Shown: one piece after another, positions 30,358 to 51,670 of the stretch
Numbering within the stretch: the first letter of the stretch is position 1
Layout: each line of letters starts with the position of its first letter
Assembly: GCA_025560025.1 (NCBI GenBank)
Contig: CP048486.1
Span: 558,001-622,000, forward strand
Reading direction: 5' to 3'
Length of the DNA: 64,000 nt
From: Agrobacterium tumefaciens
Lineage (GTDB): Bacteria > Pseudomonadota > Alphaproteobacteria > Rhizobiales > Rhizobiaceae
Notes under the pieces: generated by a model
What the model saw: only the letters and a program-made list of their open reading frames with translations
Databases searched by the model: none
What the model was told of the DNA's origin: nothing
Position numbers and translations under genes: made by a program

Positions 30358-31533
30358 TCAGCCGCCGGCCGCCTTGATGCTCTGACGGCCGAGGATGGTT
30401 CGGATCATATGGCTCTGCGGCGCATGCGCCCTCGCCGTTATGGCGTCGCGATGATGGCGCTCAAGGTTGTAATCCCGGCGAAGGCCGCGATTACCGCCAA
30501 GCTCCAGCGCCAGATCGGTCACCGCCACCGCATTGTCGATCACCACATGACGGACAGCGAGCGCATCCGTTCCCACCCTTTCTCCCGCATCGATATCGCG
30601 GGCGACGGAGAGAAGCAGACGCCGGTTCGCCGCAAGCAGAACCTCGATCTGGCCGAGGCCTTCCTGAATGCGCGGAATGGAGGATAGCGGCGCACCGAGA
30701 CTGGCCGGGACATGGCCCGTGAGGTGCCGCAACAGGGCGTCACGCGCCGAAAGCGCAACACCGTGATAGACGGAGGCCAAAAGCACGAAGAAATTATAAC
30801 CGTCGGCCTCGTCGCGTCGCAGCGGCTCGTCCGCCGGCTGTTCGGCAACGAGATCGGCCAGCGGCACCCTTACCTCCTCAAGCACCAGATCGTCGCTTGC
30901 GGTCGCATACATGCCGGTCGCTTCCCACGCCTTTTCCTGCGTGATACCAGGTGCATCGAGCGGGACCAGAAGCTGGATGAGGCGCGGCTTCTCTTCTGTC
31001 GTCAGAGCAAGCACGATCGCCCATTTCAACCCCGGCAGGCCAGTGACGAAGCTCTTGCGGCCATTGACCACCCAGACATCACCCTCTATCCGCGCCGTCG
31101 TTTCCGGCAGGCCGCCATGGGCCGGCGAACCGATCCCCGGCTCCGCCTGTGCATTGTTCAGAAGCGCCGGCTCGCTATTATTGGCGGCCAGCACCTTTGC
31201 CGCGAGAGCTGCTGGCCACTTGCCGCGCCGGATCGCTGCATGGACGCTGTAATGCATGGCAAGGATGAGGGCGGTCGATGGGTCGCCCTTGGCGATGGCC
31301 GCAATGACCGCGTGGGCCGTTTCCATACCCTCTCCCCAGCCGCCATCCTTTTCAGCCGACACCAGTCCGAGCAGTCCCGACTTGAAAAGCGCCTCGAAAT
31401 TGGCGGCGGCGAATTCGCCGCTTTTGTCATGCTCCGCCGCGGTCAGGCTGAAATCTTCGGCAAGGGCGGCTGCGATGGCGACGGGGTTTGAGGCCTGCTC
31501 CGGGCGGGGAATGGCCGATAATGCGCCACTCAT
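30358..31533 (-). CDS. Acyl-CoA-dehydrogenase-fold flavin enzyme (SfnB/DszC-like)
   Basis: A 391-residue protein with a full three-domain acyl-CoA dehydrogenase fold. FKSGLLGLVSAEKDGGWGEG, ALILAMHYSVHAAI, WVVNGRKSFVTGLPGLKWAIV and the C-terminal ALELGGNRGLRRDYNLERHHRDAITARAHAP are visible. The catalytic Glu of acyl-CoA dehydrogenases is not in its usual context, and the His in AMHYSVH matches a DszC active-site position. It is probably an FMNH2-dependent sulfur or nitrogen oxygenase rather than a fatty-acid enzyme. Its ATG overlaps the stop of the DszB-like gene (ATGA), so the two are translationally coupled. Confidence 0.78.
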   Translation of the reverse strand: MSGALSAIPRPEQASNPVAIAAALAEDFSLTAAEHDKSGEFAAANFEALFKSGLLGLVSAEKDGGWGEGMETAHAVIAAIAKGDPSTALILAMHYSVHAAIRRGKWPAALAAKVLAANNSEPALLNNAQAEPGIGSPAHGGLPETTARIEGDVWVVNGRKSFVTGLPGLKWAIVLALTTEEKPRLIQLLVPLDAPGITQEKAWEATGMYATASDDLVLEEVRVPLADLVAEQPADEPLRRDEADGYNFFVLLASVYHGVALSARDALLRHLTGHVPASLGAPLSSIPRIQEGLGQIEVLLAANRRLLLSVARDIDAGERVGTDALAVRHVVIDNAVAVTDLALELGGNRGLRRDYNLERHHRDAITARAHAPQSHMIRTILGRQSIKAAGG

Positions 31534-32561
31534 GCAACCGCCCTTTCATTTGCCGTGACAAAACGGTCATCGATCCACGCATCGAGATCGAAGTCATTTT
31601 CAAGGAAGCCCCATTGATGCAGGAAATCCTTGTAATGGCCGACAGCGGCGACGAGCTCCGCATCGAGGCCGAGGCCAAGATGGCGGTGAACATCCGGCCC
31701 GTTGGCGGCCAGAACCTGCTCTTCAGTCGCACCCGCCTCGCGCGCGATGAAACGGCGGGTTTCTTCCGGGTGCTGTTCGGCCCAGAGCGAGGCCCTGGCG
31801 ATTGAACCAACCAGCCGCTCCACCAGGTCGGGGCGCTCATCGGCAAGCCGTCCGTCAACCGTCAGCACGCGCGGAGAACCGGAATTGATGCGGATTTTCG
31901 GGTCGGGGTGAAAACCGAACTCGGCCACCTGCACCGCTCCGATCAGGTTCGCGGCGGCGATACCAGCCGTTCCCTTCACGAAAACCGCATCGACGTCACC
32001 CCGCAACAGTGCGATGATTTCCTCGCCGAAGGATTGCCGGCGCTTCAGGCCGAACAGCGACGGCCCTTCCTGCGAGGCCAGCACCGAATCCTTGATGACG
32101 ATGTCCTTGAGTTCGACATCCTCTATCTTCAGCCCTTCCAGCGAAAGCGCCGAAACGATGCCTTTCAGCGCCGTCGCGCGCATGAAATCGACAATGCCTT
32201 CCGGCCGGCGCGGCACGCCGAAACGGCGGCCGACGAGATCGGAAAGCGAGCGGATACCGGTCTCCGGCAGGGTGATGATTGCCTGAAACTCATCCGTCCA
32301 GGTCACCCCGATAAGGCGCGTATTGCGCCCCTCCGAACGGGCTCGAATGGGAGGCACATTGCCGCCATGGCGGAAGGACCATTCCAGCGTGTGGTTGAAA
32401 TGGCTCTGTCGGACGGAACGGTCAGGCGAATCGATGATGGATTTCAACGCTATGCCGACCTCCTCAAAGGTCTGCTCGAGATAACCGAGCTGTGCCGCCA
32501 GCCCCACCGGCGTGGGCACCGGGCAGCGTGTGTACCAGATTTCAGAAAGTGACGTGCTCAT
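31530..32561 (-). CDS. DszB-like sulfinate desulfinase (copy 1)
   Basis: I chose ATG 32561 (343 residues). It would usually be labelled an SsuA/NMT1 binding protein, but there is no signal peptide. The N-terminus reads WYTRCPVPTPVGLAAQLGYLE, parallel to TYSNCPVPNALL in DszB (2'-hydroxybiphenyl-2-sulfinate desulfinase). QSHFNHTLEWSFRHGGNVPPI parallels the DszB His60-Arg70 segment. Cys13, His54 and Arg64 correspond to the DszB triad Cys27, His60 and Arg70, with the same 10-residue His-Arg spacing. The enzyme should release sulfite from an organic sulfinate in the cytosol. It lies between a Tat-exported receptor gene and an acyl-CoA-dehydrogenase-fold monooxygenase. Confidence 0.8.
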   Translation of the reverse strand: MSTSLSEIWYTRCPVPTPVGLAAQLGYLEQTFEEVGIALKSIIDSPDRSVRQSHFNHTLEWSFRHGGNVPPIRARSEGRNTRLIGVTWTDEFQAIITLPETGIRSLSDLVGRRFGVPRRPEGIVDFMRATALKGIVSALSLEGLKIEDVELKDIVIKDSVLASQEGPSLFGLKRRQSFGEEIIALLRGDVDAVFVKGTAGIAAANLIGAVQVAEFGFHPDPKIRINSGSPRVLTVDGRLADERPDLVERLVGSIARASLWAEQHPEETRRFIAREAGATEEQVLAANGPDVHRHLGLGLDAELVAAVGHYKDFLHQWGFLENDFDLDAWIDDRFVTANERAVA

Positions 32562-32628
32562 GGCTTTGGCCTCGATGAAAGGGAAAGGTCCCGGCCCGCC
32601 GCAAAGGGGGCCGGGTCTGGCGAGACGA

Positions 32629-34236
32629 TCAGGATGCGGCGATATGCGCGAAGGCGAGGCTTCCCGCCACACCTTCGGCGCCGACGGTGTGATCGGCGAT
32701 ACGCTTGTTGAAGATGGTAATTTCTGGTGCTGCGACGATATCAATTGCCGGCACATCATCGACGAGAATCTGCTGGATTTCCTTCCATTGCGCGACGCGC
32801 TTGTCCGGATCGATCTCGATGGCGGCGGCTTCGAGAAGCGCATCCACCTTCGGATTGCTGTAGGCCGCACCATTGGAGAAGGGCACGCCCTTCTTGAAGT
32901 TCTTCGACCAGTAAAGCCGCTGCACGCCGACGGTCGGATCGAAGAGATTGCTCATGCCCTCATAGGCAAAATCGAAATCGCGATCCGTGTAGATGCGTTT
33001 GGTATAGGTGGCGAAATCCTGCGTCCGCACCGTCACATCCACGCCGACCTTGGCCAGCGCCTGACGAATATAGTCCGCACCACGCGGATAGGCCTCGGTG
33101 CTCGGCACATAGTCCAGATTGAGCTTGAAACGGATGCCATCCGCACCGCGCTTGTATCCGGCCTCATCGAGAAGCGCTTCGGCGGCCTTCAGATCGATCG
33201 GGTAGGTCTTCAGATCATCCACGAACCATTTCGTCAGCTTCGGATTGATCGGCCCGGTGATGGTTGCGCCGTAACCGTAATTAACGGTGTTGAAGATGAC
33301 GTTGCGGTCGATCACATGCGCGAAGGCGCGACGGACGCGCACATCCTTGAACACATCCTTTTCGAGATTGAACTCCACGCGGCTGACGGAATTCGAATAT
33401 TGATAGCCGTTTGTCTCAAAACCGAGGCTGGGAAGCTCTTTCAGGCGGTCGAGATCGCTATAGGCGACCGGCGTGCTGGGCGCGAGATCGATCTCACCGG
33501 TTTCGATGGCAATCGCCCGGGCGGAAGCGTCCGGAATGAAGCGGACGATGAGCTTGTCGAGATAGGGACGCGGCGCATCCCAATAATCGGCATTACGCTC
33601 GAAAACGATATGGCTGCCGCGCACCCACTCCTTGAACTTGAACGGGCCGGTGCCGATGGGGGCGAGATTGACCGGGTTTTCGGTGACTTTCGTGCCTTCA
33701 TAGAGATGTTTCGGCACGATGGGTGTTTCGGCGGCGGCGAGCGCCGTTATCAGGTACGGCGCGGGTTTGGAAAGAACCAGAACCGCCGTCAGCTCGTCCG
33801 GCGTCTCGACAGCAGTGAGGTTCAGGAATGTATTGCGGCCGCGCGGATGCACTTCCTTGATGGTATTGATGGAGAACGCCACGTCAGCGGATGTGAAGGG
33901 CTTGCCGTCATGCCACTTCACGCCGGGCCTCAGATTGAAGGTGTAATGCAGACCATCCGCGCTCACTTCCCATGATTTGGCCAGCAGCGGCTTGGGATTG
34001 AGATCAAAATCATAGGTCAACAGCCCTTCGGTGACCTTGGGCGATATATAGACGGAATTATAGGCTGTGTGTGCGATCGTCGTCAGCACCGGCGGCTCCG
34101 ATGAGATGAGCAGGGTAGCCGTGCCACCGCTTGCCGGCTCCGCCGCGTTGAGCTTCAGCCCCGGCAGCGACACCACGCCAAGCGCCACGGACGCCAGCAG
34201 AAATCCACGCCGCGTCGTCTGGTTGAAAATAGTCAT
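32629..34236 (-). CDS. ABC importer receptor, SBP_bac_5 family, Tat-exported (sulfur island copy 1)
   Basis: The start at 34236 gives 535 residues; the extension upstream covers promoter DNA. The leader contains a twin-arginine motif, TTRRGFLLASVALG, and cleavage is expected after LNAAEP, about residue 32. FNLRPGVKWHDGKPFTSADVAFSINTIKE and GTGPFKFKEWVRGSH are family core motifs. LFDPTVGVQRLYWSKNFKKG is shared with the receptors at 43199 and 45616, making a three-member paralogous set. It is divergent from the permease operon at 34506 and most likely works with it. The ligand is inferred to be an organosulfur compound. Confidence 0.88.
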   Translation of the reverse strand: MTIFNQTTRRGFLLASVALGVVSLPGLKLNAAEPASGGTATLLISSEPPVLTTIAHTAYNSVYISPKVTEGLLTYDFDLNPKPLLAKSWEVSADGLHYTFNLRPGVKWHDGKPFTSADVAFSINTIKEVHPRGRNTFLNLTAVETPDELTAVLVLSKPAPYLITALAAAETPIVPKHLYEGTKVTENPVNLAPIGTGPFKFKEWVRGSHIVFERNADYWDAPRPYLDKLIVRFIPDASARAIAIETGEIDLAPSTPVAYSDLDRLKELPSLGFETNGYQYSNSVSRVEFNLEKDVFKDVRVRRAFAHVIDRNVIFNTVNYGYGATITGPINPKLTKWFVDDLKTYPIDLKAAEALLDEAGYKRGADGIRFKLNLDYVPSTEAYPRGADYIRQALAKVGVDVTVRTQDFATYTKRIYTDRDFDFAYEGMSNLFDPTVGVQRLYWSKNFKKGVPFSNGAAYSNPKVDALLEAAAIEIDPDKRVAQWKEIQQILVDDVPAIDIVAAPEITIFNKRIADHTVGAEGVAGSLAFAHIAAS

Positions 34237-34421
34237 GCGATACCCTCTCCTTGATTGAACCGGCGAAAAACCGGCAAACTGAACGGCCGCGTTTAGGAAG
34301 AAGTTTGTTCCGCAGACGAGAGCGAGCTTGGCATGAAGAACCAATCATTCTCATTAACAGGAATTATCTTTTCTTTATGGCGCATATTTCCGTAAATTTC
34401 AGAAAATAATTCTATTACTCT

Positions 34422-34452
34422 TTGACAAATTCCATAAAATTAGTCAACTAAT
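34422..34452. promoter_or_regulatory. TTGACA box and TAGTC-N-ACTA operator between receptor and permease genes
   Basis: ATTAGTCAACTAAT (34439-34452) is palindromic except for the central CA. A consensus -35 box TTGACA (34422-34427) lies 11 bases before it, so the motif would cover the -10 region of a rightward promoter, a repressor-like position. It is 54 bases upstream of the permease start and about 200 upstream of the divergent receptor. Confidence 0.65.
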
Positions 34453-34505
34453 ACCAGCGCCTTCAGGGGCCGATGTCATATTTCCACGCTTACGGACTGG
34501 AGCCG

Positions 34506-35495
34506 ATGTCGAATTCGAAACGGATTTTATCGCAGGCAAGGCGGGTTGCCATTCAGGCCATTCCGACGGTTCTCGGTATCGTCATCCTGAACTTCTTCCT
34601 GCTGCAACTGGCGCCCGGCGATGCGGCTGATGTGCTGGCCGCGGAAGCGGGTTCAGCGACCGTCGAGACCATGGCCGAAATCCGCAACCGCTTCGGGCTG
34701 GATCTGCCTGTCGTGCATCAGCTGATGAACTATCTCGGCAATCTCGCGCAGTTCAGCCTCGGCTTTTCGCCGCGTTACGGCATGCCGGTGGCAGACCTCA
34801 TCGGCCAGCGTCTGCCCGGCACACTCGCCCTGATGGGCGCAGCGCTCGGCATTGCGATTTTCGTCGGTGTGTTTCTCGGCTCGATCATGGCGCTTTTCTC
34901 CGGCAAGCTGCCGGACCGGATCATTTCCATCGGCTCGCTGATCTTTTATTCCGTGCCGGGTTTCTGGATCGGACTGATGTTGATCCTGACCTTCTCAGTG
35001 AAGCTCGGCTGGCTTCCCTCGGGCGGCGACAGCACCATCGGCAGCAGCCTCACCGGTCTCGACGCCCTGCTGGACAGGCTGCGTTATATCGTTCTCCCCG
35101 CCCTTTCGCTGGCGCTTTATTTTCTGGCCATCTATGCCCGCCTTACCCGTGCGGCGATGCTGGAAGTGAAATCTCAGGACTATGTGCGCACGGCGCGCGC
35201 CAAGGGCGTTTCTCCGCTCCGGCTCACCACGCGCCATATCCTGCGCAATGCGCTCATCCCCATCACCACCATGGCCGGCATGCATATCGGCGGCCTGCTC
35301 GGCGGCGCTGTCGTGGTCGAAACGGTCTTCAGTTGGCCGGGCCTTGGCCGTCTTGCTTTCGAAGCCGTCATGGCGCGTGATTTCAGCGTGTTGCTCGGCA
35401 TTCTGCTTCTCTCCTCCCTCGTCGTCATCATCGTCAATGCAGCCGTGGACCTATTGCAGGCCTGGCTTGACCCCCGCATCGGAGAAAGCCGATGA
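34506..35495 (+). CDS. ABC importer permease, DppB type (sulfur island)
   Basis: I chose ATG 34506 (329 residues) because the DppB N-terminal helix (AIPTVLGIVILNFFLLQLAPGD) begins 25 residues later; an in-frame ATG at 34473 is possible. The EAA loop is in VRTARAKGVSPLRLTTRHILRNALIPI, and FSWPGLGRLAFEAVMARDFSVL is the family C-terminal signature. The stop overlaps the next start by ATGA. It is the first gene of a rightward operon carrying a complete importer plus an aldo-keto reductase, a DszC-like enzyme and a LysR regulator. Confidence 0.9.
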   Translation: MSNSKRILSQARRVAIQAIPTVLGIVILNFFLLQLAPGDAADVLAAEAGSATVETMAEIRNRFGLDLPVVHQLMNYLGNLAQFSLGFSPRYGMPVADLIGQRLPGTLALMGAALGIAIFVGVFLGSIMALFSGKLPDRIISIGSLIFYSVPGFWIGLMLILTFSVKLGWLPSGGDSTIGSSLTGLDALLDRLRYIVLPALSLALYFLAIYARLTRAAMLEVKSQDYVRTARAKGVSPLRLTTRHILRNALIPITTMAGMHIGGLLGGAVVVETVFSWPGLGRLAFEAVMARDFSVLLGILLLSSLVVIIVNAAVDLLQAWLDPRIGESR

Positions 35496-36483
35496 ATTCC
35501 TCCCAGACCACCGCTGTCCTCGACACGGCCGAACTCGGCGTCGAAGACAACAATCCCAAACCGAAGAAACCGGAAGAAAAAGCCTGGCCCTATATCCATG
35601 CGCCGGATGCGCTTTCAGCCCGCTCCGTCTCCGTGCCCCGGCGCGGCCTGCGGCGGGAACTGAAAATCTTCCTCACCAATCCCAACGCCATCGTCGGGTT
35701 GCTGTTTCTCGCAACCGTCATCGTCACCGCGCTGATTGCCCCCTTGATCTATCCCGGGGATCCCCTGGAAATGGTGGCCCGCCCGTTCCTCTGGCCCGGC
35801 CAGAATGCCGCCTATCCGCTCGGCACCGATTCCATGGGCCGGGACGTTCTGGCCGGCATCGTGCATGGCGCGCGCATCTCGCTCACCGTCGGGGTCGTGG
35901 CGACGCTGATCGGCCTGACGATCGGCATCGCTGTTGGCGCCTTCGCCGGTTATTTCGGCGGCGTCATTGACGATATTCTCGTCAAGCTGATCGAAATCTT
36001 CCAGACCCTGCCGAATTTCGTGCTGCTGGTGGTGCTCGTCGCCATCGCCCAGCCGTCGGTCACCACAGTCACATCGGCCATCGGCATCATCACCTGGCCG
36101 CTGGTGGCGCGCCTCACCCGTGCGGAATTCCGCGCCATCCGCGAGAAAGACTATGTGCTCGCCGCCCGCAGCCTCGGTTACGGCCATGCGCGCATCGTCT
36201 TTCAGGAAATCCTGCCCAATGCGCTGCCGCCGATCATCGTCACCTCCTCCGTCATGGTGGCGGGCGCGATCCTCATGGAGGCGGCACTCTCCTTCATGGG
36301 GCTTGGCGATCCCAACCGTGTCTCCTGGGGATCGATGATCGGTTCCGGCCGTGATGTCATCCGTACCGCCTGGTATCTGACCGCCCTTCCCGGCCTTGCC
36401 ATCGTCTTCACCGTCATTTCGCTGAACCTCATTAGCGATGGCCTCAACGATGCGCTCAACCCCCGTTTTTCGGAGGAACGCCG

Positions 36484-36487
<4 letters not shown>
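35492..36487 (+). CDS. ABC importer permease, DppC type (sulfur island)
   Basis: A 331-residue permease with an unusually long hydrophilic N-terminal tail of about 60 residues (charged segment NNPKPKKPEEKAWPYIHAPD) before the first helix. Then come GTDSMGRDVLAGIVHGARISLTVG, the EAA loop AARSLGYGHARIVFQEILPNALPPI and ALSFMGLGDPNRVSWGSMI. The family usually has a 20-30 residue tail. ATGA overlaps link it to the genes before and after, indicating tight co-translation. Confidence 0.9.
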
Positions 36488-38395
<1,908 letters not shown>

Positions 38396-38413
38396 ACTGA
38401 AGGAGCAACCATA

Positions 38414-39469: not shown

Positions 39470-39538
39470 TCGTCCAGAAGACCATGCCTGCGGCGCGCCC
39501 GTGCCGCAGGCCCTCACATCCGCTCAGGGAAAACCGCA

Positions 39539-40777
39539 ATGTCCACTCCGAAACTGCAAACAACCACCACCGACAATTCCGGCGTACCGAGCCGTGACGA
39601 GATTCTGGCCCGGGCAAAGGACATTGCGGCCATCGCGGCCAAGGATGCCGCCCGTCGCGAACGCCAGCGAGAACTTCCCTTCGACATCTTCGCCCTTATC
39701 AAGGAAGCGAAGATCGGCACGCTGCGCGTTCCCGAAGCCAAGGGCGGACCGGGCGGCTCGATTGCCGACTATATCGAAGTGCTGATGATCCTCGGCGAAG
39801 CCGACAGCAATATTCCACACGCGCTTCGCAGCCATTTCAATTTCACCGAAAACCTCGCTCTCGCACCCATCGAGCTGGAGGACCGGCGGCATCTCGAACA
39901 TGTGCTTGCCGGCAAGCTCTTCGCAGGCGCCAGTACCGAACAGGGCACCAAGCGCCCCGGCGAAATCACCACCCGGCTGAGTGCGGATGGTGACCGTTAC
40001 CGGCTGAACGGCCGCAAATGGTATGCGACCGGCACGGCCTTTGCCGATTTCGGCACCTTCAGCGCCATTGGCGATGACGAACAACCGATTGGCGTGCTCA
40101 TTCCGCTCGATCGCGCCGGCATCACCATCCTCGACGACTGGGACAGCATGGGCCAGCGCATGACGGCGAGCGGCGGCGTCCTGCTGGAAAATGTCGAGGT
40201 GCTGCCGCATGAATTGACGACCCGCAAGCTCGGCAGCCAGATCGGCCGCCACAGCTCGGCCATGCGGCAGCTGCATCTCGCCGCCTCGGCCGCCGGCGCC
40301 GTTCAGGGCGCGTTGAAGGACGGCTTGGAGTATGTGTTGCGCCAGGCGCGCACCACGCTTCACAGCAGCGCCGAAACCGCCAATCAGGACCCCTTCGTGC
40401 AGAAGATGCTCGGCGAAATCAGCGCCGGCGCTTTCGCCGTGAAGACGCTGATCCGCGAGGCGGCGAGAACGCTCGACCGCACCGCCGCCGCCTTCGCCAC
40501 CGGGGACGAAGAGGCGATCGAGGCAGCCTTGCTGGAAGGCTCGCTCGCCACAGCCCGCACCCAGATCATCGCCTCGCAGCTGTCGCTGACGGTCGCCACC
40601 AATCTCTATGAACTCGGCGGCGGTTCGGCGACATCGAGCGAGCGGAATTTCGACCGCCACTGGCGCAATATCCGCACGGTCTACAATCACAATCCGCTTG
40701 CCCACAAGGCGCGGGTGATCGGGGACTATTATCTCAACGGCACCACGACGCATCTCCGGGAAGGCCGGGTGTTCTGA
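39539..40777 (+). CDS. DszC-like flavin-dependent sulfur monooxygenase
   Basis: A 412-residue acyl-CoA-dehydrogenase-fold protein close in layout to DszC (dibenzothiophene monooxygenase). ALRSHFNFTENLAL matches the DszC His92 region; YRLNGRKWYATGTAFADF and WDSMGQRMTASGGVLLENVEV parallel the flavin-binding beta domain. The C-terminal FDRHWRNIRTVYNHNPLAHKARVIGDYYLNG follows the DszC pattern. One of the two DszC active-site His in that block is kept (NHNP) and the other is replaced. The family catalytic Glu of acyl-CoA dehydrogenases is not evident. It probably oxygenates a thioether or sulfone using reduced FMN. Confidence 0.85.
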   Translation: MSTPKLQTTTTDNSGVPSRDEILARAKDIAAIAAKDAARRERQRELPFDIFALIKEAKIGTLRVPEAKGGPGGSIADYIEVLMILGEADSNIPHALRSHFNFTENLALAPIELEDRRHLEHVLAGKLFAGASTEQGTKRPGEITTRLSADGDRYRLNGRKWYATGTAFADFGTFSAIGDDEQPIGVLIPLDRAGITILDDWDSMGQRMTASGGVLLENVEVLPHELTTRKLGSQIGRHSSAMRQLHLAASAAGAVQGALKDGLEYVLRQARTTLHSSAETANQDPFVQKMLGEISAGAFAVKTLIREAARTLDRTAAAFATGDEEAIEAALLEGSLATARTQIIASQLSLTVATNLYELGGGSATSSERNFDRHWRNIRTVYNHNPLAHKARVIGDYYLNGTTTHLREGRVF

Positions 40778-40814
40778 CCATGCGGAAGATGCAGGCGGCA
40801 AAGGAGAAACAGCA

Positions 40815-41786: not shown

Positions 41787-41802
41787 ACACGCCCGTCCCA
41801 CC

Positions 41803-43155
41803 TCAGGCGCGTTCCCTTTGCAACTCTCTGGCCGCATAGATATTTTCCGGCCGAGGCAGGCCATAATGGTCACGCAGCGTGTCGCCCTCGTAATCCTCGC
41901 GGAACAGCCCCCGCTGTTTAAGGATCGGCACGACCCCGTCAACGAAGTTGTCGAACCCGCCATTCAACCATGGCGGCATGATATTGAAGCCGTCGGCCGC
42001 GCCCTCGCGGAACCAGGTCTCTATCCAGTCCGCCACCTGCTCAGGTGTTCCGGAAATCACCTTGTGGCCGCGCCCGCCGGCAAGCCGGTGCAGCAATTGC
42101 CGGATCGTCGGATTTTCCCGGTCTATGACATCGAGAACCAGCTGATGCCGGCTGCTATCCGCCTGCGCCCGCGTCGCCTCCACGGCTTCCTTCGGCAGCG
42201 GCTGGTCGAGATCGGCCGATGAGAGATCGATGCCGGTGATGCGCTGCAATTGCCCGAGCGAAAAGGCTGGCTGGATGAGATCGTTGAAGGAAGCCTCGAG
42301 CCTGCGCGCCTCCTCTTCGGTTGACGCGATGAAGGGGCTGATGCCCGGCAGGATTTTCACATGGGCGGGATTGCGCCCCGTGGCCGCGACGCGCCGCTTG
42401 ATGTCGGAATAAAAAGACCGCGCACTCTCCAGAGTCTGATGCGCGGTAAAGATTGCCTCGGCATAATGGGCGGCGAAACCGCGCCCTTCCTCCGAGGAGC
42501 CGGCCTGCACATAGACCGGCCGGCCCTGCGGTGAACGCGGCACGTTCAGCGCGCCCCGCACCCGATAAAATTCGCCGTCGTGATTGGCAGGATGGATGCG
42601 GTCGGTATCGGCGAAAAGGCCGCTTTCTCTATCCGCAACAATGGCGTCATCTTCCCAGCTGTCCCAGAGCTTCGTCACCACATCCACGAACTCGATCGCC
42701 TGACGGTAACGATCCGCATGCGGCGGATGCTTCTGGAGATTGAAGTTGCCGGCGGCCGCATCCGCCGAAGTCGTCACGATGTTCCAGCCCACCCGGCCGC
42801 CGCTGATATGATCGACGGACGCGAATAGCCGCGCAAGATTATACGGCTCGTAATAGGTGGTGGAGGCCGTGGCGATGAAGCCGATCTTTTCGGTGACGGC
42901 GGCGAGAGCCGCCAGCATGGTGATCGGCTCCAGCCGGTGGCGAGCGGCATAGCGAATATTGGCGTCCAGCACCGGCGCATCGGCGAAGAAGATGGCATCG
43001 AGCTTCGCCGCCTCGGCCTTGCGGGCGATATCCTGATAGAGCTTTATATCGGTGACGCGATGTGGCTCGGAGTCCGGATGCCGCCAGGCCGCCTCGTGAT
43101 GTCCGCCCGGATAGATGAAGGCGTTAAGAACCAGCTTCTCGGATTTTCTGCTCAT
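41803..43155 (-). CDS. NtaA/DszA-family flavin monooxygenase (sulfur island)
   Basis: A 450-residue monooxygenase with the DszA/SnaA/NtaA pattern: LNAFIYPGGHHEAAWRHPDSEP, FFADAPVLDANIRYAARHRLEPITMLAALAAVTEKIGFIATASTTYYEPYNLAR, ISGGRVGWNIVTTS and PVYVQAGSSEEGRGFAA. The C-terminal SGTPEQVADWIETWF and FREDYEGDTLRDHYGLPRPEN are family features. DszA converts a sulfone to a sulfinate, the substrate of DszB, and two DszB-like enzymes are encoded nearby. It is the last gene of a leftward unit with a receptor (43199) and a DUF3088 gene (44834). Confidence 0.88.
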   Translation of the reverse strand: MSRKSEKLVLNAFIYPGGHHEAAWRHPDSEPHRVTDIKLYQDIARKAEAAKLDAIFFADAPVLDANIRYAARHRLEPITMLAALAAVTEKIGFIATASTTYYEPYNLARLFASVDHISGGRVGWNIVTTSADAAAGNFNLQKHPPHADRYRQAIEFVDVVTKLWDSWEDDAIVADRESGLFADTDRIHPANHDGEFYRVRGALNVPRSPQGRPVYVQAGSSEEGRGFAAHYAEAIFTAHQTLESARSFYSDIKRRVAATGRNPAHVKILPGISPFIASTEEEARRLEASFNDLIQPAFSLGQLQRITGIDLSSADLDQPLPKEAVEATRAQADSSRHQLVLDVIDRENPTIRQLLHRLAGGRGHKVISGTPEQVADWIETWFREGAADGFNIMPPWLNGGFDNFVDGVVPILKQRGLFREDYEGDTLRDHYGLPRPENIYAARELQRERA

Positions 43156-43198
43156 GGGAATGACCTCTTATTCGCTCTGAACCGAAGGGGGGAGGCGT

Positions 43199-44794
43199 TC
43201 ACGCCTCCTTCGTCACCCAGGCCTTTGCGAGATTGCCGCTGAGCCCTTCCGCCCCGGTCGCATAATCCTTGATGCGCACGCTGCCGACGACCGGCTGGAT
43301 GGGGGAAACAAGATTGATGACGGGAAGATCCCTGGCGATAACGGCCTGAAACTCCTTGAAGAAGGCGGCGCGTTTTTCGATATCCGGCTCCACCGCCGCT
43401 GCTTCCAGCAGCTGGTCCACTTCGGGATTGGCGTAGTGGCTGGCATTGGAAAATGGCAGGCCGATCTTGAAATTCTTGCTCCAGTAGACGCGCTGCACGC
43501 CCGCTGTCGGATCGAAGGTGTTGGAGAGAGATTCCACCGAAAGGTCCCAGGCGCGGTCGGTATAGACCACCTTCACATAGGTGCCGAAATCGAATTTCTG
43601 GATATCCGCCTCGATGCCGATTTTCGACAGCGCCTGCGCGATGAAATCCGAATAGGTCTGCGGATTGAAGGGGTTGGTGGTAACCCGAAGCTTGAAGCGC
43701 TTGCCGCCATCCTTGCGCGGAAAACCGGCTTCATCCAGCAGCTTTTCAGCCTGTGCGACATCGAACTTGGCAAACCCGATATCCGGATTGTGAAACTTCG
43801 CAAGGCCGGGGCTGATCGGCGTCGGCGATGGCACGGCATAACCATAAAGCACGGTATCGATGAGCGCCGGAACATCGATGGCATGGGCGATGGCCTGCCT
43901 GACCTTCAATTCCTTGAGATATTCATTCTCAAGGTTGATCACCAGCTGGTTCTGCTGGCCGGCATAGGCATAGATGCGGTCATCCACCTTCAGTGTCGGA
44001 ATGGATTTCAACCGCTCCAGATCGGCAAGCGCCACCGGGTTGGGGCCGATGTCCCCTTCCCCGGTTTCCAGCGCCGCCGCGCGGGCGCCCGCATCGTTGA
44101 TGAGGCGGATGATGACGCGGTCGAGATAAGGGCGCGGCGCATCCCAGTAATCGGCATTCTTCTCCAGAAGAATATGGCTGCCCGGCACCCATTCCTTGAG
44201 CACAAAGGGGCCGCTGCCGATGATCTGGGCCGGTTTCGGATTATCCGTCGGCTTGAAGGTCTCGAAGATGTGCTTCGGCACGATTGGCGATTCCGACGAG
44301 GCGAGCGCGGTGATCAGGCCCGGCGCCGGCTTGGAAAGCTTCACTTTCGCGACCAGCGGATCGGAGGCATCGACACTTTCAACATGCGAGAAAGTGGCGC
44401 GACCACGCGGATGGGCCTCCTTCAGCCGCAGGATGGAAAACTCCACATCTGCCGATGTCACCGGTTTGCCGTCGTGAAACTTCGCCTTCGGCTGCAGATG
44501 GAAGACATATTCCAGTCCATCGGCCGAAACGCTCCATTCCCTGGCGAGGCTCGGCTTGGGCGAAAGCTCGTAATCGTAAGTCAAAAGCCCATCGTAAATC
44601 TTCGAGCCGATAAACTGCGGACCGCCCGCACTGGTATTGATCGCCACGAGCTGGGTCGGCTCGGGAAAATAAACAATCTTCAGCGTCCCGCCCGAAACCG
44701 GCTCTTCGGCGGCGGCGAAAGAACCGCCCGGAAGCGCGACGAAAGCGCCGGCGGCAAGTGCAATTTTGTGAAACTGGCGTCTGGAAATGGTCAT
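43199..44794 (-). CDS. ABC importer receptor, SBP_bac_5 family, Tat-exported (sulfur island copy 2)
   Basis: A 531-residue receptor with a classical Tat leader, TISRRQFHKIALAAG, cleaved near SFAAAEEP (about residue 29). Core motifs include FHLQPKAKFHDGKPVTSADVEFSILRLKEAHPRG and GSGPFVLKEWVPGSHILLEKNADYWDAPRPYLD. The block TFDPTAGVQRVYWSKNFKIGLPFSNASHYANPEVDQLLEAAAVE, split by few substitutions, is shared with the receptors at 32629 and 45616. No permease gene accompanies it, so it probably feeds the single DppBCDF set at 34506-38395. Confidence 0.88.
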   Translation of the reverse strand: MTISRRQFHKIALAAGAFVALPGGSFAAAEEPVSGGTLKIVYFPEPTQLVAINTSAGGPQFIGSKIYDGLLTYDYELSPKPSLAREWSVSADGLEYVFHLQPKAKFHDGKPVTSADVEFSILRLKEAHPRGRATFSHVESVDASDPLVAKVKLSKPAPGLITALASSESPIVPKHIFETFKPTDNPKPAQIIGSGPFVLKEWVPGSHILLEKNADYWDAPRPYLDRVIIRLINDAGARAAALETGEGDIGPNPVALADLERLKSIPTLKVDDRIYAYAGQQNQLVINLENEYLKELKVRQAIAHAIDVPALIDTVLYGYAVPSPTPISPGLAKFHNPDIGFAKFDVAQAEKLLDEAGFPRKDGGKRFKLRVTTNPFNPQTYSDFIAQALSKIGIEADIQKFDFGTYVKVVYTDRAWDLSVESLSNTFDPTAGVQRVYWSKNFKIGLPFSNASHYANPEVDQLLEAAAVEPDIEKRAAFFKEFQAVIARDLPVINLVSPIQPVVGSVRIKDYATGAEGLSGNLAKAWVTKEA

Positions 44795-44833
44795 GTCTGT
44801 CTCCGAAAAAATCCGATATGCGGGCGCGGCAAC

Positions 44834-45184: not shown

Positions 45185-45239
45185 GAGGGTGAGATTTCCA
45201 GCTCACAGTGCAGACGGCCAGAGCGCGGGTCCAGAAAGC

Positions 45240-45264
45240 AATTCTTGCTTTGAAACGAAGAATT
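45240..45264 (-). promoter_or_regulatory. LysR-style dyad before the DUF3088 unit
   Basis: AATTCTT (45240-45246) and AAGAATT (45258-45264) are perfect inverted arms 11 bases apart, giving the T-N11-A arrangement of LysR-type sites. It is 56 bases upstream of the DUF3088 start. The LysR regulator at 40815-41786 is the nearest candidate binder. Confidence 0.5.
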
Positions 45265-45416
45265 CCTTTGCGCTAAATTATTGATGAAACTTATTTTTTC
45301 GAAATTTTTCACGGCTGGCATCGCTGTTTCGCCCGACCTGTTTCATGCGCAAAGTTTTTCCCTGAAACGGGCGTGCCGCGCGAAGGTGCAAAAAAGGATG
45401 GAAGGCGGATTTCGGC

Positions 45417-45445
45417 AATAAAAAACCCGGCAAAATTGCCGGGTT
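45417..45445 (-). terminator. Rho-independent terminator of the leftward desulfinase operon
   Basis: Minus strand AACCCGGCA-ATTT-TGCCGGGTT followed by TTTTATT, about 170 bases after the stop of the receptor gene at 45616. It separates the 51670-45616 transcript from the DUF3088 unit. Confidence 0.85.
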
Positions 45446-45471
45446 AATGTTGATGATCGCAGACCCCTCCT

Positions 45472-45586
45472 CCGTCATGCCGGGCTTGACCCGGCATCCA
45501 GCCACGGCGCGTCTGCGCCGTGAGAAGAGTCTCTTGCGATCAAGGACTTGATCGCGCTGGACCCCGGATCCAGTCCGGGGTGACGG
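45472..45586. repeat. Palindromic intergenic repeat, long form (copy 3)
   Basis: A 115-base element starting CCGTCATGCCGGG and ending CCGGGGTGACGG. It contains three hairpins: CCGGGCTTGACCCGG, CACGGCGC-GTCT-GCGCCGTG and CCCCGGATCCAGTCCGGGG, plus GATCAAG-GA-CTTGATC. It matches, in reverse orientation, the element at 58452-58565 over nearly its whole length. The outer blocks relate it to the short forms at 315 and 11217. Confidence 0.88.
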
Positions 45587-45615
45587 AGTTTGGATGAACC
45601 CGCTTTGCCAAACGC

Positions 45616-47205: not shown

Positions 47206-47239
47206 GGATGTTTCCTCTTGCAGGCTTGTTTTTAAATGT

Positions 47240-48439
47240 TCAAACGGGCTTCAGCCGGGTTTCCACCAGCCGGGCAAACAGAGTGGCACCGACGGGCAGA
47301 ATGGCGTCGTCGACGATGAAACCGGGATTATGGGCGGGCACCGTGCCGGAATGACCGAGGGTGAAAAACGCGCCGGGCGCGTGTTTCAGGAGATCGGCAA
47401 AATCCTCGCTGCCCATGAAGCGGCCGGGCTCGGTGGAAACGCGCTCGTCCCCCAGAACCTCACGCGCCACACCGGCGACGATCTCCACAGACGCATCGTC
47501 ATTGGTGAGAACCGAGAATATGTCGCGAATATCCACCTCGGCGGTGAGGCCGTGCGCCGCGGCAATGTGATCGGAAATCGTGCGGATGCGCTCTCTTATG
47601 AGTTCGCGCACGCTGTCGGAGAAGGCCCGAACCGTGCCGGCAATCGCGGCCGTTTCGGGAATGATGTTATAGGCCGATCCCGCCTCGATGCGGGTGATCG
47701 ACAGCACGGCAGGATCGGTCGGCGGCACGTTACGGCTGACGATGGTTTGCAATGCCTGGATCAGTTCACCCGTCGCCGGCACCGGGTCACGCGAAACATC
47801 GGGGTGAGCAGCGTGTGCCCCCCTGCCCTTCAGCCGGATATCGAAGAAATCCGCACCCGCCAGAATGGTACCGGGCGAAACCTTGAGATGATTGGGCGCG
47901 GCATGGGAGGAATTGTGCAGCCCGTAAATCTCGTCAACGGGGAAATCCTTGAACAGCCCATCGGCGATCATGGCGCGCGCGCCGCCAAGACCTTCCTCGG
48001 CCGGCTGGAAAATGAACACCACCGTGCCGGCAAAATCGCGGGTTTCCGCCAGATAGCGGGCGGTGCCGAGCAGGATGGTGGTGTGCACATCATGCCCGCA
48101 GCCATGAAACTTGCCGGGATAGACAGACGCATAGGGCAGACCGGTTTCCTCCGGCATCGGCAGGGCATCCATATCCGCCCTCAGCCCGATGGAGCGATTG
48201 CCCGCATGGCGGCCGCGTAGCACGCCGACCACACCGGTCTTGCCATAACCACGATGCACCTCGATGCCCCAGGAGGCGAGCTTTTCGGAAACAATGCCGG
48301 AGGTGCGGACCTCCTCGAAACCGATTTCCGGATGCTGATGCAGATCGTGGCGGATGGAGACGAGTTCGGGAACATAGGTCCCGATCCGATCTATGATTTT
48401 GGGTGCAGGCGTTTTGACGGGATCGACGGCGATATTCAC
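47240..48439 (-). CDS. M20 metallo-amidohydrolase (hippuricase type), desulfinase operon
   Basis: A 399-residue M20D enzyme starting at GTG 48439, with GAGGAG 6 bases upstream. The metal ligands are all present: KFHGCGHDVHTTIL, IFQPAEEGLGGARAM, IYGLHNSSHA, RFMGSEDFADLLK and VPAHNPGFIVDDA. It is only moderately similar to the M20 protein at 17902-19089, so the two probably act on different N-acyl compounds. Placed between an SfnG-like monooxygenase and an importer receptor, it could remove an N-acyl group from an imported S-containing amide or amino acid. Confidence 0.88.
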   Translation of the reverse strand: MNIAVDPVKTPAPKIIDRIGTYVPELVSIRHDLHQHPEIGFEEVRTSGIVSEKLASWGIEVHRGYGKTGVVGVLRGRHAGNRSIGLRADMDALPMPEETGLPYASVYPGKFHGCGHDVHTTILLGTARYLAETRDFAGTVVFIFQPAEEGLGGARAMIADGLFKDFPVDEIYGLHNSSHAAPNHLKVSPGTILAGADFFDIRLKGRGAHAAHPDVSRDPVPATGELIQALQTIVSRNVPPTDPAVLSITRIEAGSAYNIIPETAAIAGTVRAFSDSVRELIRERIRTISDHIAAAHGLTAEVDIRDIFSVLTNDDASVEIVAGVAREVLGDERVSTEPGRFMGSEDFADLLKHAPGAFFTLGHSGTVPAHNPGFIVDDAILPVGATLFARLVETRLKPV

Positions 48440-48529
48440 GGTATCTCCTCAGGGCAAAAAATATCGTTTTCGCAATCGGGCGATTGCGAAGTGTGGGTTT
48501 CGGGGCTGGAAAATGCAGCGGGAGAGGCG

Positions 48530-49714
48530 TCAGAACCTCAGGCCCGCCTCCTTCATCAGGGGCAGAATGCGCTCGGCGAAATAATCGAGGTCCTCGCGGA
48601 AATCGTAGAAATTCAGCTGAACCCCATCGATCCCGGCCTTTTTCAGACCGACAAGCTGCTCGACCACCTGCTCCGGCGAACCGATGATCTCGATATTGCC
48701 GCCAAGATTGCGCCCCTGCTTGTGGCGCGCATCGCCACGGCCGCGCCAGGCATGGGCATCGCTGTCGTAATTATTGGTGGCGAAGGCGCGGGTGCCGGGC
48801 TGCGGTTTTCCAGCCTCGATGGCATCCGCATAAGCGATCGCCTCCTTCTCCGTATCGCGGCTAACGATGATCGGATTGATGATCGTCTTTACCTGCCGGC
48901 CATAGGCCTTGGCGCGGTTTTTAATGTTTGCGACATGATCGGGAAGCGTTTCCAACGCGCTGTCTATATGCGCGCCGCCGGGCGAGGTGACGAAAACCAG
49001 ATCGGAATGCCGGGCGGCGAAATCGATACCCGCAGGTGATCCAGTCGCCGTCACCAGCGGTGGGCGTCCGAAAGCAGGCTTCGGCGTGATCCAGCCATTG
49101 TTGATCGCCCAGGGATTGAGTTTTCCCTCGTAGGAAAAATTCTCGGTCTCCCCCCACAGGCGATGCAGCACATCGAACAATTCGCCAGCCATGTCGTAAC
49201 GCTTGTCGTGGTCGATACGCTGCCAGCCAAACATTTCATGCTCGATGGCGCGGTGGCCGGTGACAATATTGATGCCCCAGCGTCCCTTGGCGATATGATC
49301 CAGCGTCGCGCCATATTTGGCGAGATGCAGCGGATGCAGCGGCCCATAAAGCACATGGATGGTGGAGATCAGCAGAATGTTCTTCGTGACCGCCGCCATG
49401 GCGCCAAGCGCGATGAAGCTGTCGAGCGAGGATTCGCCATCATAACCGCCCTTGGGCAGCCATTGCGTGCGACTGAAGGCGATTTCGAAACCAAGCTCTT
49501 CCGCGCGCTTCACCAGTTCGACATTATAATCGAAGGTCCAGCTGTTGCTGGTCGGCAGGCTGGAGAAATTGATGTCCTGCAGATTGAGGAACAGGCCCAG
49601 CATCAGCGGCTGCTTCACCGCCCGGCTGAGCGGGCTGTCTTCGAAATCGGCCGGGCTTTTCAGGTCGAGACCTTTCAGCTCGGAACCTTCAGGCAGCGGA
49701 GTAGTCAACGCCAT
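48530..49714 (-). CDS. Luciferase-like flavin monooxygenase, SfnG/RutA-like branch
   Basis: A 394-residue FMNH2-dependent monooxygenase. A 35-residue N-terminal extension precedes PLMLGLFLNLQDINF. FDYNVELVKRAEELGFEIAFSRTQWLPKGGYDGESSLDSFIALGAMAAVTKNILLISTIHVLYGPLHPLHLAKYGATLDHIAKGRWGINIVTGH, in pieces, matches the SfnG (dimethylsulfone monooxygenase) and RutA branch more than SsuD or DszA. GGNIEIIGSPEQVVEQLVGLKKAGIDGVQLNFYDF is the C-terminal part. SfnG converts dimethylsulfone to methanesulfinate, which fits an operon that also encodes a sulfinate desulfinase. Its start overlaps the previous stop by 10 bases. Confidence 0.8.
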   Translation of the reverse strand: MALTTPLPEGSELKGLDLKSPADFEDSPLSRAVKQPLMLGLFLNLQDINFSSLPTSNSWTFDYNVELVKRAEELGFEIAFSRTQWLPKGGYDGESSLDSFIALGAMAAVTKNILLISTIHVLYGPLHPLHLAKYGATLDHIAKGRWGINIVTGHRAIEHEMFGWQRIDHDKRYDMAGELFDVLHRLWGETENFSYEGKLNPWAINNGWITPKPAFGRPPLVTATGSPAGIDFAARHSDLVFVTSPGGAHIDSALETLPDHVANIKNRAKAYGRQVKTIINPIIVSRDTEKEAIAYADAIEAGKPQPGTRAFATNNYDSDAHAWRGRGDARHKQGRNLGGNIEIIGSPEQVVEQLVGLKKAGIDGVQLNFYDFREDLDYFAERILPLMKEAGLRF

Positions 49715-50595
49715 GTCTTTTCTCCCTCGGAATGATCCTGCGGGGTGGTTGCCAGCCGGACACGCAGATAGTCCTCCACGCTGCGGGGCAACCGGCCGGT
49801 AATCTGCTGGACGGTATTGTTGACGGACGCCGCAAGGCCTTTGCGGATAAGTTGGCCGAATTCGCCGATCGCCTTCTGTTCAAACGCGCCGATATGTGGC
49901 AGCAAGGCCGGGGCGGCATTGTCCGAAATTCCCACGGGCCGATGCTGGATGCGCGCCGCGATGCGGGCGATTTCCAGTGCCGACAGGGCTTCGGCACCGG
50001 TCAACACCAGGGTGCCGGAAACAGGTGCGCTTGTGGTGAGAGCATGAACCGCGACATCGGCAATATCGTCCGCATCGATGAAGGAGACAGCCGCGTCGCC
50101 AAAGCGGGCGGGCACATCCTCTCCCTTGCGCAACGCGGCGACAACGGGTTCCAGCGCAACCTGCATCCAGGCATTCGGCCGCAGCACGGTATACGCGATA
50201 CCGCTTGCGGCCAGATGCGCTTCCACCTGGGCATGCGCCGCCCCCGAAATGGAATATCCGGCGTTCTCAATGGTCCAGTCGGAGCCGGATATTTTCACGA
50301 TCCGCGACGCACCGGCTGAGAGGGCGGCATCGATGACCGCATTCTGGTCCGCCGCCAGCGTTTCACCGATGGGGGAAAGCAGAAAGACGGTCCCGATACC
50401 GCGCGAGGCCTCCTTCAGGCTGGCCGGGTCGGAGAAATTTCCCTCCGAGATATCGACCCTGTCGCCCCAGAGCTTGAGCGCATCCTCGCGCCTGCGGGTC
50501 AGCACCCGAACCTTCGCCTCTTTCTGCAAGAGACGGCTGACGACACGTCGGCCGAGCTTGCCGGTTGCGCCCGTTACAAGAATGGTGGCTGTCAT
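49705..50595 (-). CDS. NmrA/SDR-type NAD(P)-binding protein
   Basis: The start at 50595 (296 residues) has GAGGG just upstream. It begins with the Rossmann motif TILVTGATGKLGRRVVSRLLQ and continues VRVLTRRREDAL, IGTVFLLSPIGETLAADQNAVIDAALSAGASRIVKISG, the pattern of atypical short-chain reductases of the NmrA/QorR group. The usual SDR Tyr-x-x-x-Lys is not in its normal place. Function could be quinone or enal reduction or redox sensing. It is tightly packed between the DszB-like gene (7 bases) and the SfnG-like gene (10-base overlap), so it probably serves the same pathway. Confidence 0.82.
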   Translation of the reverse strand: MTATILVTGATGKLGRRVVSRLLQKEAKVRVLTRRREDALKLWGDRVDISEGNFSDPASLKEASRGIGTVFLLSPIGETLAADQNAVIDAALSAGASRIVKISGSDWTIENAGYSISGAAHAQVEAHLAASGIAYTVLRPNAWMQVALEPVVAALRKGEDVPARFGDAAVSFIDADDIADVAVHALTTSAPVSGTLVLTGAEALSALEIARIAARIQHRPVGISDNAAPALLPHIGAFEQKAIGEFGQLIRKGLAASVNNTVQQITGRLPRSVEDYLRVRLATTPQDHSEGEKTWR

Positions 50596-50602
50596 GACGC
50601 CC

Positions 50603-51670
50603 TCACTTTCCCGCACTGCGTTGCGCAGCATCTTGCTCGAAAGAAAGGGCGCGTGGATCGGCCCAGTCCTGCACATCGAAATCCGCCGGAATGAATTTCC
50701 ATTCCAGCAGGAAATCCTTGAAGTGGCTCAGTGCATCCAGCTCGGCCGGATCGAGATCGAGCCTCAGATTGCGGTATACATCCGGGCCATTCGCAGCCAG
50801 AACCGCCTCCTCGCTGACGCCGATCTCACGAGCAATGAAACGCACGGCTTCCGCCGGATTGTCATTTGCCCATTGGGCAACCCGCTGTACCGTGGCGACG
50901 AGTTCCGCCACCAGATCGGGCCGCTCATCGGCAAAGGTGGCGTCCACCGTCAAGGGGCGCGGCGTGCCATTGTTGATGCGGATTTTCGGATCGGGGTGGA
51001 AACCTGTCGACACCACGACCTGCGCACCGATGAGATTGGCGACGGTGACGCCTTCCGCGCCCTTGACGAAAAACGCATCGATCTGGCCCCGATGCAGCGC
51101 TGCAATCTCCTCGCCATAAGGAAACCGCCGGCGCAGACCATGGAACCTGTCGTCAGAAGGATCGAGCAACACCGGCTCTTTCGCCGTGAGATCGACAAGC
51201 TCGATATCCGCAACGGCGAGGCCCGAGACCGTCAGCGCCGAAACGATGCCTTTGAGCGATGTGGCGCGCTGGAAATCGATGGTTTCATTCGGGCGCTTCG
51301 GCAGGCCGATGCGCCGACCCTTCAGGTCACTGCCCCTGTTTATTCCGCTTGCTGGCAAAGCGATGACGGCCTGAAACTCGTCGGTCCTCGTCAGCCCCAC
51401 CAGCCGTGTTTTCCGGCCGCCTGATTTCGCCCAGATCGGCGGAATATTGCCGCCCTGACGGAAGGACCAGTCCAGACGGTGATCGAAATGGCTCTGGCGA
51501 ATGGCCGGATCGACCGCGTCGCGAATGGAGGAAACAGAGATTCCATGGGTGGAGAAACGTTTCTCGATCCAGCCCAGTTGCGCCGCGATGGAAAGCGGCG
51601 TGGGCGCCGGGCAGCGTGTGTACCATACGGTTACGGGTTGGGTTATCTGGCGAAGGGCGGCATCAGCCAT
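50603..51670 (-). CDS. DszB-like sulfinate desulfinase (copy 2)
   Basis: A 355-residue protein without signal peptide. VWYTRCPAPTPLSIAAQLGWIE places Cys20 where DszB has Cys27. RQSHFDHRLDWSFRQGGNIPPIW gives His61 and Arg71, matching DszB His60 and Arg70 with identical spacing. The rest (FQAVIALPASGINRGSDLKGRRIGLPKRP, FVKGAEGVTVANLIGAQVVVSTGF, DPKIRINNGTPRPLTVDATFADERPDLV) shares the two-lobe binding-protein fold. It is a full-length paralogue of the protein at 31530-32561. It leads the leftward operon, with an operator-like element 51 bases upstream. Predicted to free sulfite from an organic sulfinate. Confidence 0.8.
   Translation of the reverse strand: MADAALRQITQPVTVWYTRCPAPTPLSIAAQLGWIEKRFSTHGISVSSIRDAVDPAIRQSHFDHRLDWSFRQGGNIPPIWAKSGGRKTRLVGLTRTDEFQAVIALPASGINRGSDLKGRRIGLPKRPNETIDFQRATSLKGIVSALTVSGLAVADIELVDLTAKEPVLLDPSDDRFHGLRRRFPYGEEIAALHRGQIDAFFVKGAEGVTVANLIGAQVVVSTGFHPDPKIRINNGTPRPLTVDATFADERPDLVAELVATVQRVAQWANDNPAEAVRFIAREIGVSEEAVLAANGPDVYRNLRLDLDPAELDALSHFKDFLLEWKFIPADFDVQDWADPRALSFEQDAAQRSAGK

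Follow-up and report, generated by a model that had tools for sequence, protein, structure and literature searches.

Two genes whose products resemble the 2'-hydroxybiphenyl-2-sulfinate desulfinase DszB/TdsB (Rhodococcus IGTS8 and Paenibacillus A11-2; PDB 2DE2-2DE4) are carried by a 64,000-nucleotide stretch of Agrobacterium tumefaciens DNA (positions 558,001 to 622,000 of contig CP048486.1), hereafter the window, to which the coordinates below refer. Proteins at these two places had been pointed out, with no strand given, in a model-made first-pass annotation; both exist there, on the minus strand, and a plus-strand reading of both intervals was ruled out by in-frame stops. We refer to the products as putative desulfinases 1 and 2; the genes and the codons of the residues aligned with the DszB active site are as follows.

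31530 to 32561, minus strand: DszB-like putative desulfinase 1, 343 amino acids (protein P0001 from its residue 105)
32523 to 32525, minus strand: codon of Cys13 of desulfinase 1, aligned with DszB C27
32400 to 32402, minus strand: codon of His54 of desulfinase 1 (DszB H60), computed from the start at 32561
32370 to 32372, minus strand: codon of Arg64 of desulfinase 1 (DszB R70), computed from the start at 32561
50603 to 51670, minus strand: DszB-like putative desulfinase 2, 355 amino acids (protein P0002)
51611 to 51613, minus strand: codon of Cys20 of desulfinase 2 (DszB C27), computed from the start at 51670
51488 to 51490, minus strand: codon of His61 of desulfinase 2 (DszB H60), position computed
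51458 to 51460, minus strand: codon of Arg71 of desulfinase 2 (DszB R70), position computed

Desulfinase 1 starts with the ATG at 32561, which has a GAGG 8 bases upstream; the longer start offered by its 447-residue frame would overlap the preceding gene, whose end is at 32629. The start of desulfinase 2 is the ATG at 51670, with a GAGG 9 bases upstream and 12 more codons back to the preceding stop. The two proteins share 55-56% identity and are the sole close relatives of each other in their own genome (next match 31 bits, vs 422); a 97% identical relative is held by A. leguminum, and no DNA match to gene 1 was found in the E. coli genomes.

Pairwise alignments to DszB extended over nearly the whole length of both proteins, with 25% and 26% identity (E 2e-15 and 4e-19), and a phmmer search of desulfinase 2 against PDB sequences returned DszB (2DE2) with an E value of 9.5e-12, vs 0.58 for SsuA. 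Further, a profile of 22 relatives built without DszB matched DszB along its full length (positions 5-341, 120.8 bits, E 5.4e-34), whereas the match to SsuA was partial (25.9 bits, 3.9e-05), which bears out the kinship with DszB, apart from SsuA, that the first-pass annotation had proposed to look for by profile. A tblastn search with DszB itself (P0123) matched 80 plasmid records, the best 40 being mostly rhizobial after one actinobacterial dszB; the four records opened among the next six matches (H62 to H64 and H66) hold these relatives.

Phylogenetic trees were built at two samplings. The larger comprised 106 rows, namely 68 relatives, 17 DszB and 21 binding proteins, after 17 nearly identical rows from Agrobacterium, 3 sequences that were fragments or could not be aligned and 3 binding proteins unmatched by the profile had been left out of 129; in it, relatives, DszB and binding proteins each formed one group. 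For the smaller, 42 rows were chosen to thin the set and to avoid long branches, and relatives plus DszB were separated from 11 SsuA/NMT1-type binding proteins with support of 100/99 (DszB 100/99, relatives 95/91), or of 99/98 when the motif columns were removed (DszB 100/99, relatives 93/87). Judged by sequence, the relatives are a sister clade of DszB and not DszB itself.

The only Pfam and NCBIfam models matched by the two proteins are of NMT1 and SsuA type, and the SsuA-type matches stay below cut-off: with NCBIfam TIGR01728 (SsuA_fam) the scores are 72.3 and 79.8 bits against a cut-off of 163.5, short of the SsuA family proper. The Pfam name NMT1/THI5 might also bring to mind a THI5-like pyrimidine synthase. 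Ten of the 11 binding proteins of the tree were scanned with NCBIfam, and all match SsuA models (96.8-249.8 bits); half of them exceed the SsuA_fam cut-off, and the other five stay under it at 96.8-117.7 bits. The expectation that automated annotation would label such relatives as binding proteins held for most names, which are of transporter or binding-protein type, but not for 5 of the 120 best relatives of P0002 (P0003, P0016, P0053, P0065 and P0111), whose source names are of a desulfurization type and in some cases say DszB; the idea is therefore not wholly new. The present analysis adds the clade together with its residues and context, and makes the case for the two window genes.

The motifs named at first, CP(V/A)PTP and SHF.H.L.WSFR.GGN(V/I)PPI, are present as written in both proteins, the former within YTRCP(V/A)PTP, and His and Arg of the latter are 10 residues apart. 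Their proposed correspondence with Cys27, His60 and Arg70 of DszB also stands in the alignment, where C27, H60, R70, G72 and G73 are kept in both proteins and S25 is replaced by Thr; in the phmmer alignment, Cys20, His61, Arg71 and Gly74 of desulfinase 2 fall on C27, H60, R70 and G73. Cys, His and Arg were all kept in 119 of the 120 best relatives of P0002 (the exception, a fragment, does not cover the region) and in 120/120 best relatives of a Streptomyces member, each set being the best 120 matches of a longer list, and likewise in 71 of the 76 proteins of the DszB search set, where four rows are without the letters and one has Gly for Cys. Since the three residues are kept in nearly all relatives, a chance motif was rejected. 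Among 83 aligned relatives, drawn from the loci and the searches with near-copies included and two broken or misaligned rows dropped, Cys is found in 78, His in 81, Arg and both Gly in all 83, and Thr at the S25 position in 78. By comparison, none of 24 aligned binding-protein rows has His or Arg in the motif columns, and one has Cys.

The passages of PMC6100217 available to us describe a calculated DszB mechanism in which C27 is the proton donor, together with an H60-S25 pair, and the C27S form is inactive; roles are given there to S25, C27, H60, R70 and G73, and F61, W155 and F203 are counted among the active-site residues. At L057 (377-2068, minus strand), L058 (1809-3698, plus strand), L059 (353-1414, minus strand) and L060 (320-1381, minus strand), tandem paralogues carry Ser where DszB has Cys27, and the aligned proteins contain no cysteine at all; these natural C27S forms adjoin an intact Cys copy, a luciferase-like monooxygenase (LLM) gene and SsuC-type permeases.

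The missing leader claimed by the first-pass annotation was likewise recovered: Cys lies at residue 13 in desulfinase 1 and at residue 20 in desulfinase 2, with no hydrophobic N-terminal stretch, and its median position in two sets of relatives is residue 13 and 15. None of 241 proteins reaches a Kyte-Doolittle mean over 10 residues of 1.88 within the first 30 residues (maximum 1.67), unlike 10 of the 13 binding proteins of the same genome, counted from the first Met, the other three having uncertain starts or none seen. Both proteins are thus predicted to be cytoplasmic.

Exactly one cysteine is present in 229 of 238 full-length relatives, and in all 229 it is the motif Cys; in the DszB set a single Cys, always the motif one, occurs in 36 of 70. 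Not counting the start, the two sets of relatives have a median of 0 and 1 Met, and desulfinase 2 itself contains one Cys and no Met beyond the start. Between 24049 and 54439, the 16 enzymes and solute-binding proteins computed contain 0-1.5% Cys plus Met. For three membrane proteins, one ATPase and one regulator of this interval the value is 1.8-3.9%, for seven genes from 54878 onward it is 2.9-5.0%, and 130 background open reading frames have a median of 3.32%, two of them being at or below 0.9%. Neither Cys nor any Met beyond the start occurs in the LLM at 53411-54439 or in the solute-binding protein at 43199-44794. A sulfur-sparing make-up has been described for Dsz enzymes (PMC8557817, in part). 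That the one Cys spared in a sulfur-purged protein sits at the catalytic place speaks for catalysis, and the neighbors, the loss of nearly all other cysteines and the sulfur-poor composition fit a sulfur-starvation enzyme.

AlphaFold2 models, for which both input alignments held DszB rows, reached a predicted local distance difference test (pLDDT) score of 85.9 for desulfinase 2 and 90.6 for desulfinase 1; in the latter, a helix at 48-56 carries His54, and residues 162-175 are of low confidence. According to excerpts of PMC6100217, segments 55-62 and 187-204 of DszB adopt a helical form once substrate is bound, which brings in H60; the modeled helix 48-56 would match segment 55-62, a correspondence by alignment, not superposition.

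The genes surrounding the two putative desulfinases include several flavin-dependent monooxygenase candidates, among them proteins of the acyl-CoA-dehydrogenase (ACAD) fold, and genes of an ATP-binding cassette (ABC) importer, as follows.

24049 to 25311, minus strand: SsuD alkanesulfonate monooxygenase, passing the NCBIfam cut-off and marking a sulfur-scavenging island
25796 to 28090, minus strand: TsuA/YeeE-like sulfur transporter and rhodanese-domain protein, downstream of desulfinase 1
30358 to 31533, minus strand: ACAD-fold flavoenzyme, sharing 4 bases with the end of desulfinase 1
32629 to 34344, minus strand: SBP_bac_5 solute-binding protein, just upstream of desulfinase 1
34473 to 38395, plus strand: Dpp/Opp-type ABC importer, two permeases and two ATPases
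39539 to 40777, plus strand: SfnB/DszC/MsuC-type flavin monooxygenase
41803 to 43155, minus strand: NtaA/DmoA-type LLM
48530 to 49714, minus strand: SfnG-like FMNH2-dependent monooxygenase, best solved relative dimethylsulfone monooxygenase (SfnG)
49705 to 50676, minus strand: NmrA/NAD(P)H-binding protein, overlapping the end of desulfinase 2
52029 to 53336, plus strand: NtaA/DmoA-type LLM, divergent from desulfinase 2
53411 to 54439, minus strand: LLM

By family scores, the enzyme at 30358 is ambiguous between acyl-CoA dehydrogenases and the SfnB/DszC type, and it is a possible S-oxygenating partner; for 39539, the solved relatives heading the list are a probable monooxygenase, TdsC, methanesulfinate monooxygenase and DszC. 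The SfnG-like enzyme at 48530 possibly performs the sulfone-to-sulfinate step, and the protein at 49705 is a possible reductase. The gap that separates desulfinase 1 from the solute-binding protein gene (32562-32628) contains a GC-rich hairpin, perhaps an attenuator; this hairpin is stable, yet no stronger than in shuffled sequences (z -0.56).

Across genomes, the relatives were grouped into 35 clusters (70 genes; 70% identity, single linkage). An LLM or ACAD-fold gene, a fold that alone is no proof of a monooxygenase, lies within 5 kb in 27 of the 35, compared with 2/13 binding proteins and 1/20 arbitrary places in the genome of the window. Among the 33 loci shown, orthologues of the ACAD-fold protein at 30358 (46-61%) occur in seven other loci, and those of the SfnG-like protein at 48530 in six more distant ones (53-59% in five, 74% in one). 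In Rhizobium acidisoli the genes run LLM, desulfinase, ACAD, which is the dszA-B-C order and matches the control dsz operon record; in Sinorhizobium meliloti both desulfinase types flank an ACAD gene, followed by a flavin adenine dinucleotide (FAD) monooxygenase and an LLM, with a sulfite dehydrogenase homologue, below family cut-offs, nearby on the opposite strand.

Agrobacterium, S. meliloti and Ensifer have genomes with both paralogous types, which mostly show PPIR and PPIW, respectively, behind the RxGG motif; single-type genomes exist as well. In S. meliloti 2011 the two types are found at locus L085, and pairs are formed by the two window genes and by 7690-8727 and 9986-11017 of L048. 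Perhaps the two types serve two sulfinates of one pathway. A member is present in 26 of 39 Agrobacterium genomes (the present one included), with both types at full length in 23; in two Agrobacterium genomes, the type-1 gene matches as two adjoining pieces or as a fragment (G593:C4:496127-497133 and G589:C2:468569-468871) and type 2 is kept. At E 1e-20, members were found in 6/199 genomes of the family, 7/397 of the order and 7/398 of the phylum, and at 1e-30 in 3/385 of the class, these genome samples overlapping. The 120 best matches of the Streptomyces query were largely from Streptomyces. At E <= 0.001, two queries matched 1405 and 2194 of 8000 scored candidates each, in sets of ungauged purity. 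Divergent members with YTNCP or FTNCP, free of monooxygenase neighbors within 5 kb, were seen at L044 7812-9110 and L056 1411-2616, the former following a homocysteine S-methyltransferase gene and ABC importer genes.

With DszB/TdsB, the two proteins share full-length homology, the absence of a leader, the C27, H60, R70, G72 and G73 residues, a sulfur-poor composition and adjoining LLM and ACAD-fold genes. Homology, clade, residues, missing leader, context and composition were computed here; from them we infer catalysis, the reaction, the order of steps and the substrate. We consider it quite probable that both proteins are cytoplasmic DszB-sister enzymes that would act on an organic sulfinate during sulfur starvation, breaking its C-S bond to free sulfite (or SO2), which would then be assimilated. 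By analogy to the 4S pathway, the ABC importer would bring in an organosulfur compound, whose sulfur would be oxidized by ACAD-fold flavin monooxygenases (39539 and perhaps 30358), and an SfnG/DszA-type LLM (48530 and others) would open the sulfone to a sulfinate; this would be bound by the RxGG arginine and glycine of the DszB-like protein, and the single Cys, polarized by a His-Thr pair (H60-S25 in DszB), would protonate the sulfinate-bearing carbon. The observation of two DszB-like proteins in the first-pass annotation is confirmed and its interpretation supported, with activity, substrate and use of sulfite for growth as its inferred parts.

The mechanism calculated for DszB, an electrophilic substitution at an unsaturated carbon, makes an aromatic or vinylic sulfinate the most likely substrate; with W155 absent, and F203 absent in nearly all rows, it would be one other than the dibenzothiophene (DBT) product. 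The DBT sulfinate appears from the sequences an unlikely substrate. Gordonia terrae C-6 bdsABC likewise combines a desulfinase gene with two flavin monooxygenase genes, shows low homology to dsz and is up-regulated on benzothiophene; it differs as an operon shown to turn benzothiophene into o-hydroxystyrene, and is compared here by its description in parts of PMC3868597. The N-terminal residues implied by the primer given there for the Gordonia operon start were absent from the first 15 residues of 318 proteins. The same source, as excerpted, cites benzothiophene desulfurization by Sinorhizobium strain KT55, with no link established between KT55 and these genes. Together with the Gordonia operon, this makes vinylic or small aryl sulfinates worth priority.

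Several observations weigh against a desulfinase function. An identity of ~26% leaves room for other chemistry, and no clade member with assayed activity was found in the open-access literature searched. The grouping with DszB, which the first-pass annotation had left to phylogeny, holds in the 42-row trees but not firmly in the 106-row tree, where the split of binding proteins from the rest has 52% in the Shimodaira-Hasegawa-like approximate likelihood ratio test (SH-aLRT) and several binding-protein branches are long. Five of the 83 aligned relatives have Ser in place of Cys, four of which represent a single tandem paralogue, found in two genera of the same family, and the fifth a Burkholderia protein also without the His; since C27S inactivates DszB, part of the clade may do something else. 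The DszB pocket is likewise altered: Tyr63 is His in both window proteins, in 239/239 readable rows of two search sets and in 79 of the 83 aligned relatives; residues 149-155, W155 among them, are absent in 83/83, and 78/83 have no residue at F203. All 16 DszB rows have both W155 and F203, which together with S25/N26 characterize the DszB subclade. R70 was taken as structural by the cited DszB authors (PMC6100217, in part). As to context, neither monooxygenase type lies within 5 kb in 8/35 clusters, and some of the sequences behind the neighbor profiles came from the window and from loci in the set, which favors hits. Sulfur poverty, moreover, is not specific to enzymes, 2 of the 13 binding proteins of the same genome having no Cys or further Met.

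The pocket changes would suit proteins that use the same active-site parts for another reaction, for instance the opening of a cyclic sulfinate ester or sulfonate cleavage, a reading to which the divergent subgroups without monooxygenase neighbors also lend themselves; we regard it as unlikely, given that the residues of the DszB mechanism are kept (S25 as Thr, C27, H60, R70 and G73) and that the LLM-desulfinase-ACAD order is that of dszABC. Somewhat less likely still are receptors of ABC importers for sulfonates or sulfinates, leaderless or otherwise exported, that perform no chemistry. Such receptors would account for the NMT1 and below-cut-off SsuA-type matches, for the natural Ser-for-Cys paralogues and for the SsuC-type permeases found within 5 kb of 14/35 clusters. 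However, the proteins have no export signal and group with DszB, the sole Cys retained is the catalytic one of DszB, monooxygenase genes are neighbors, none of the 24 aligned rows of SsuA/TauA/NMT1-type proteins has the motif His or Arg, and the Dpp-type ABC genes of the window have SBP_bac_5 proteins of their own; an exported receptor was rejected on the clade, the absent leader and the motif columns. Finally, the triad, the operon logic and the database names that say DszB could be taken to mean true DszB orthologues, in an organism desulfurizing DBT by the 4S pathway. This is very improbable, and was rejected on the 25-26% identity and the missing W155 segment; in addition, the clade is separate, and the two ACAD-fold neighbors score 79 and 122 bits with the DszC model (cut-off 850), short of DszC orthologues.

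The SfnG/MsuC/MsuD route for dimethylsulfone resembles the window in that SfnG-like and MsuC/SfnB-like enzymes are present; that route oxidizes methanesulfinate to sulfonate, with no desulfination. DszB has been treated mainly as a fuel-desulfurization enzyme in the parts of the literature searched, and no dszB was found in a desulfurizing bacterium or in a sulfolane-degrading one, according to excerpts of PMC11852219 and PMC6395730, respectively. A sister clade under a transporter name is a concrete candidate for the dszB-type step in soil bacteria. If the desulfinase reading is true, many proteins would need a new name (the 1405 and 2194 matches, possibly of mixed purity), and work on a step that is described as slow in DszB (PMC12168087, in part) would have new enzymes to start from. 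More tentatively, and with somewhat less than even confidence in the proposal as a whole, the relatives in rhizobia, Burkholderia and Streptomyces may constitute a large overlooked DszB-sister family, for the most part carrying the label 'ABC transporter substrate-binding protein', that releases sulfite in many monooxygenase clusters for sulfur starvation and so fills in their missing step. The replaced pocket (His63, no W155 segment) would then extend the range beyond biaryl sulfinates, e.g., to vinylic or small heteroaryl sulfinates from natural S-heterocycles, and, jointly with this, paired paralogues (the window pair, and Cys and Ser forms side by side elsewhere) would share one pathway.

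A Chelatococcus peptide in the accessible part of PMC4839641 was set aside as a stretch of IGTS8 DszB, uninformative on the 66%-identical Chelatococcus relative P0117. Burkholderia cenocepacia BCAM0556 is listed as 'Dibenzothiophene desulfurization enzyme B' in an NtrC-regulon table (PMC5491218) and is known here by that name. In an entry of a proteomics table on sulfur acquisition in PMC8557817, through which alone it is known here, the chromosomal Rhodococcus IGTS8_peg4802 is called both SsuA and DszB and is listed between SsuB and SsuD genes; perhaps it belongs to this clade.

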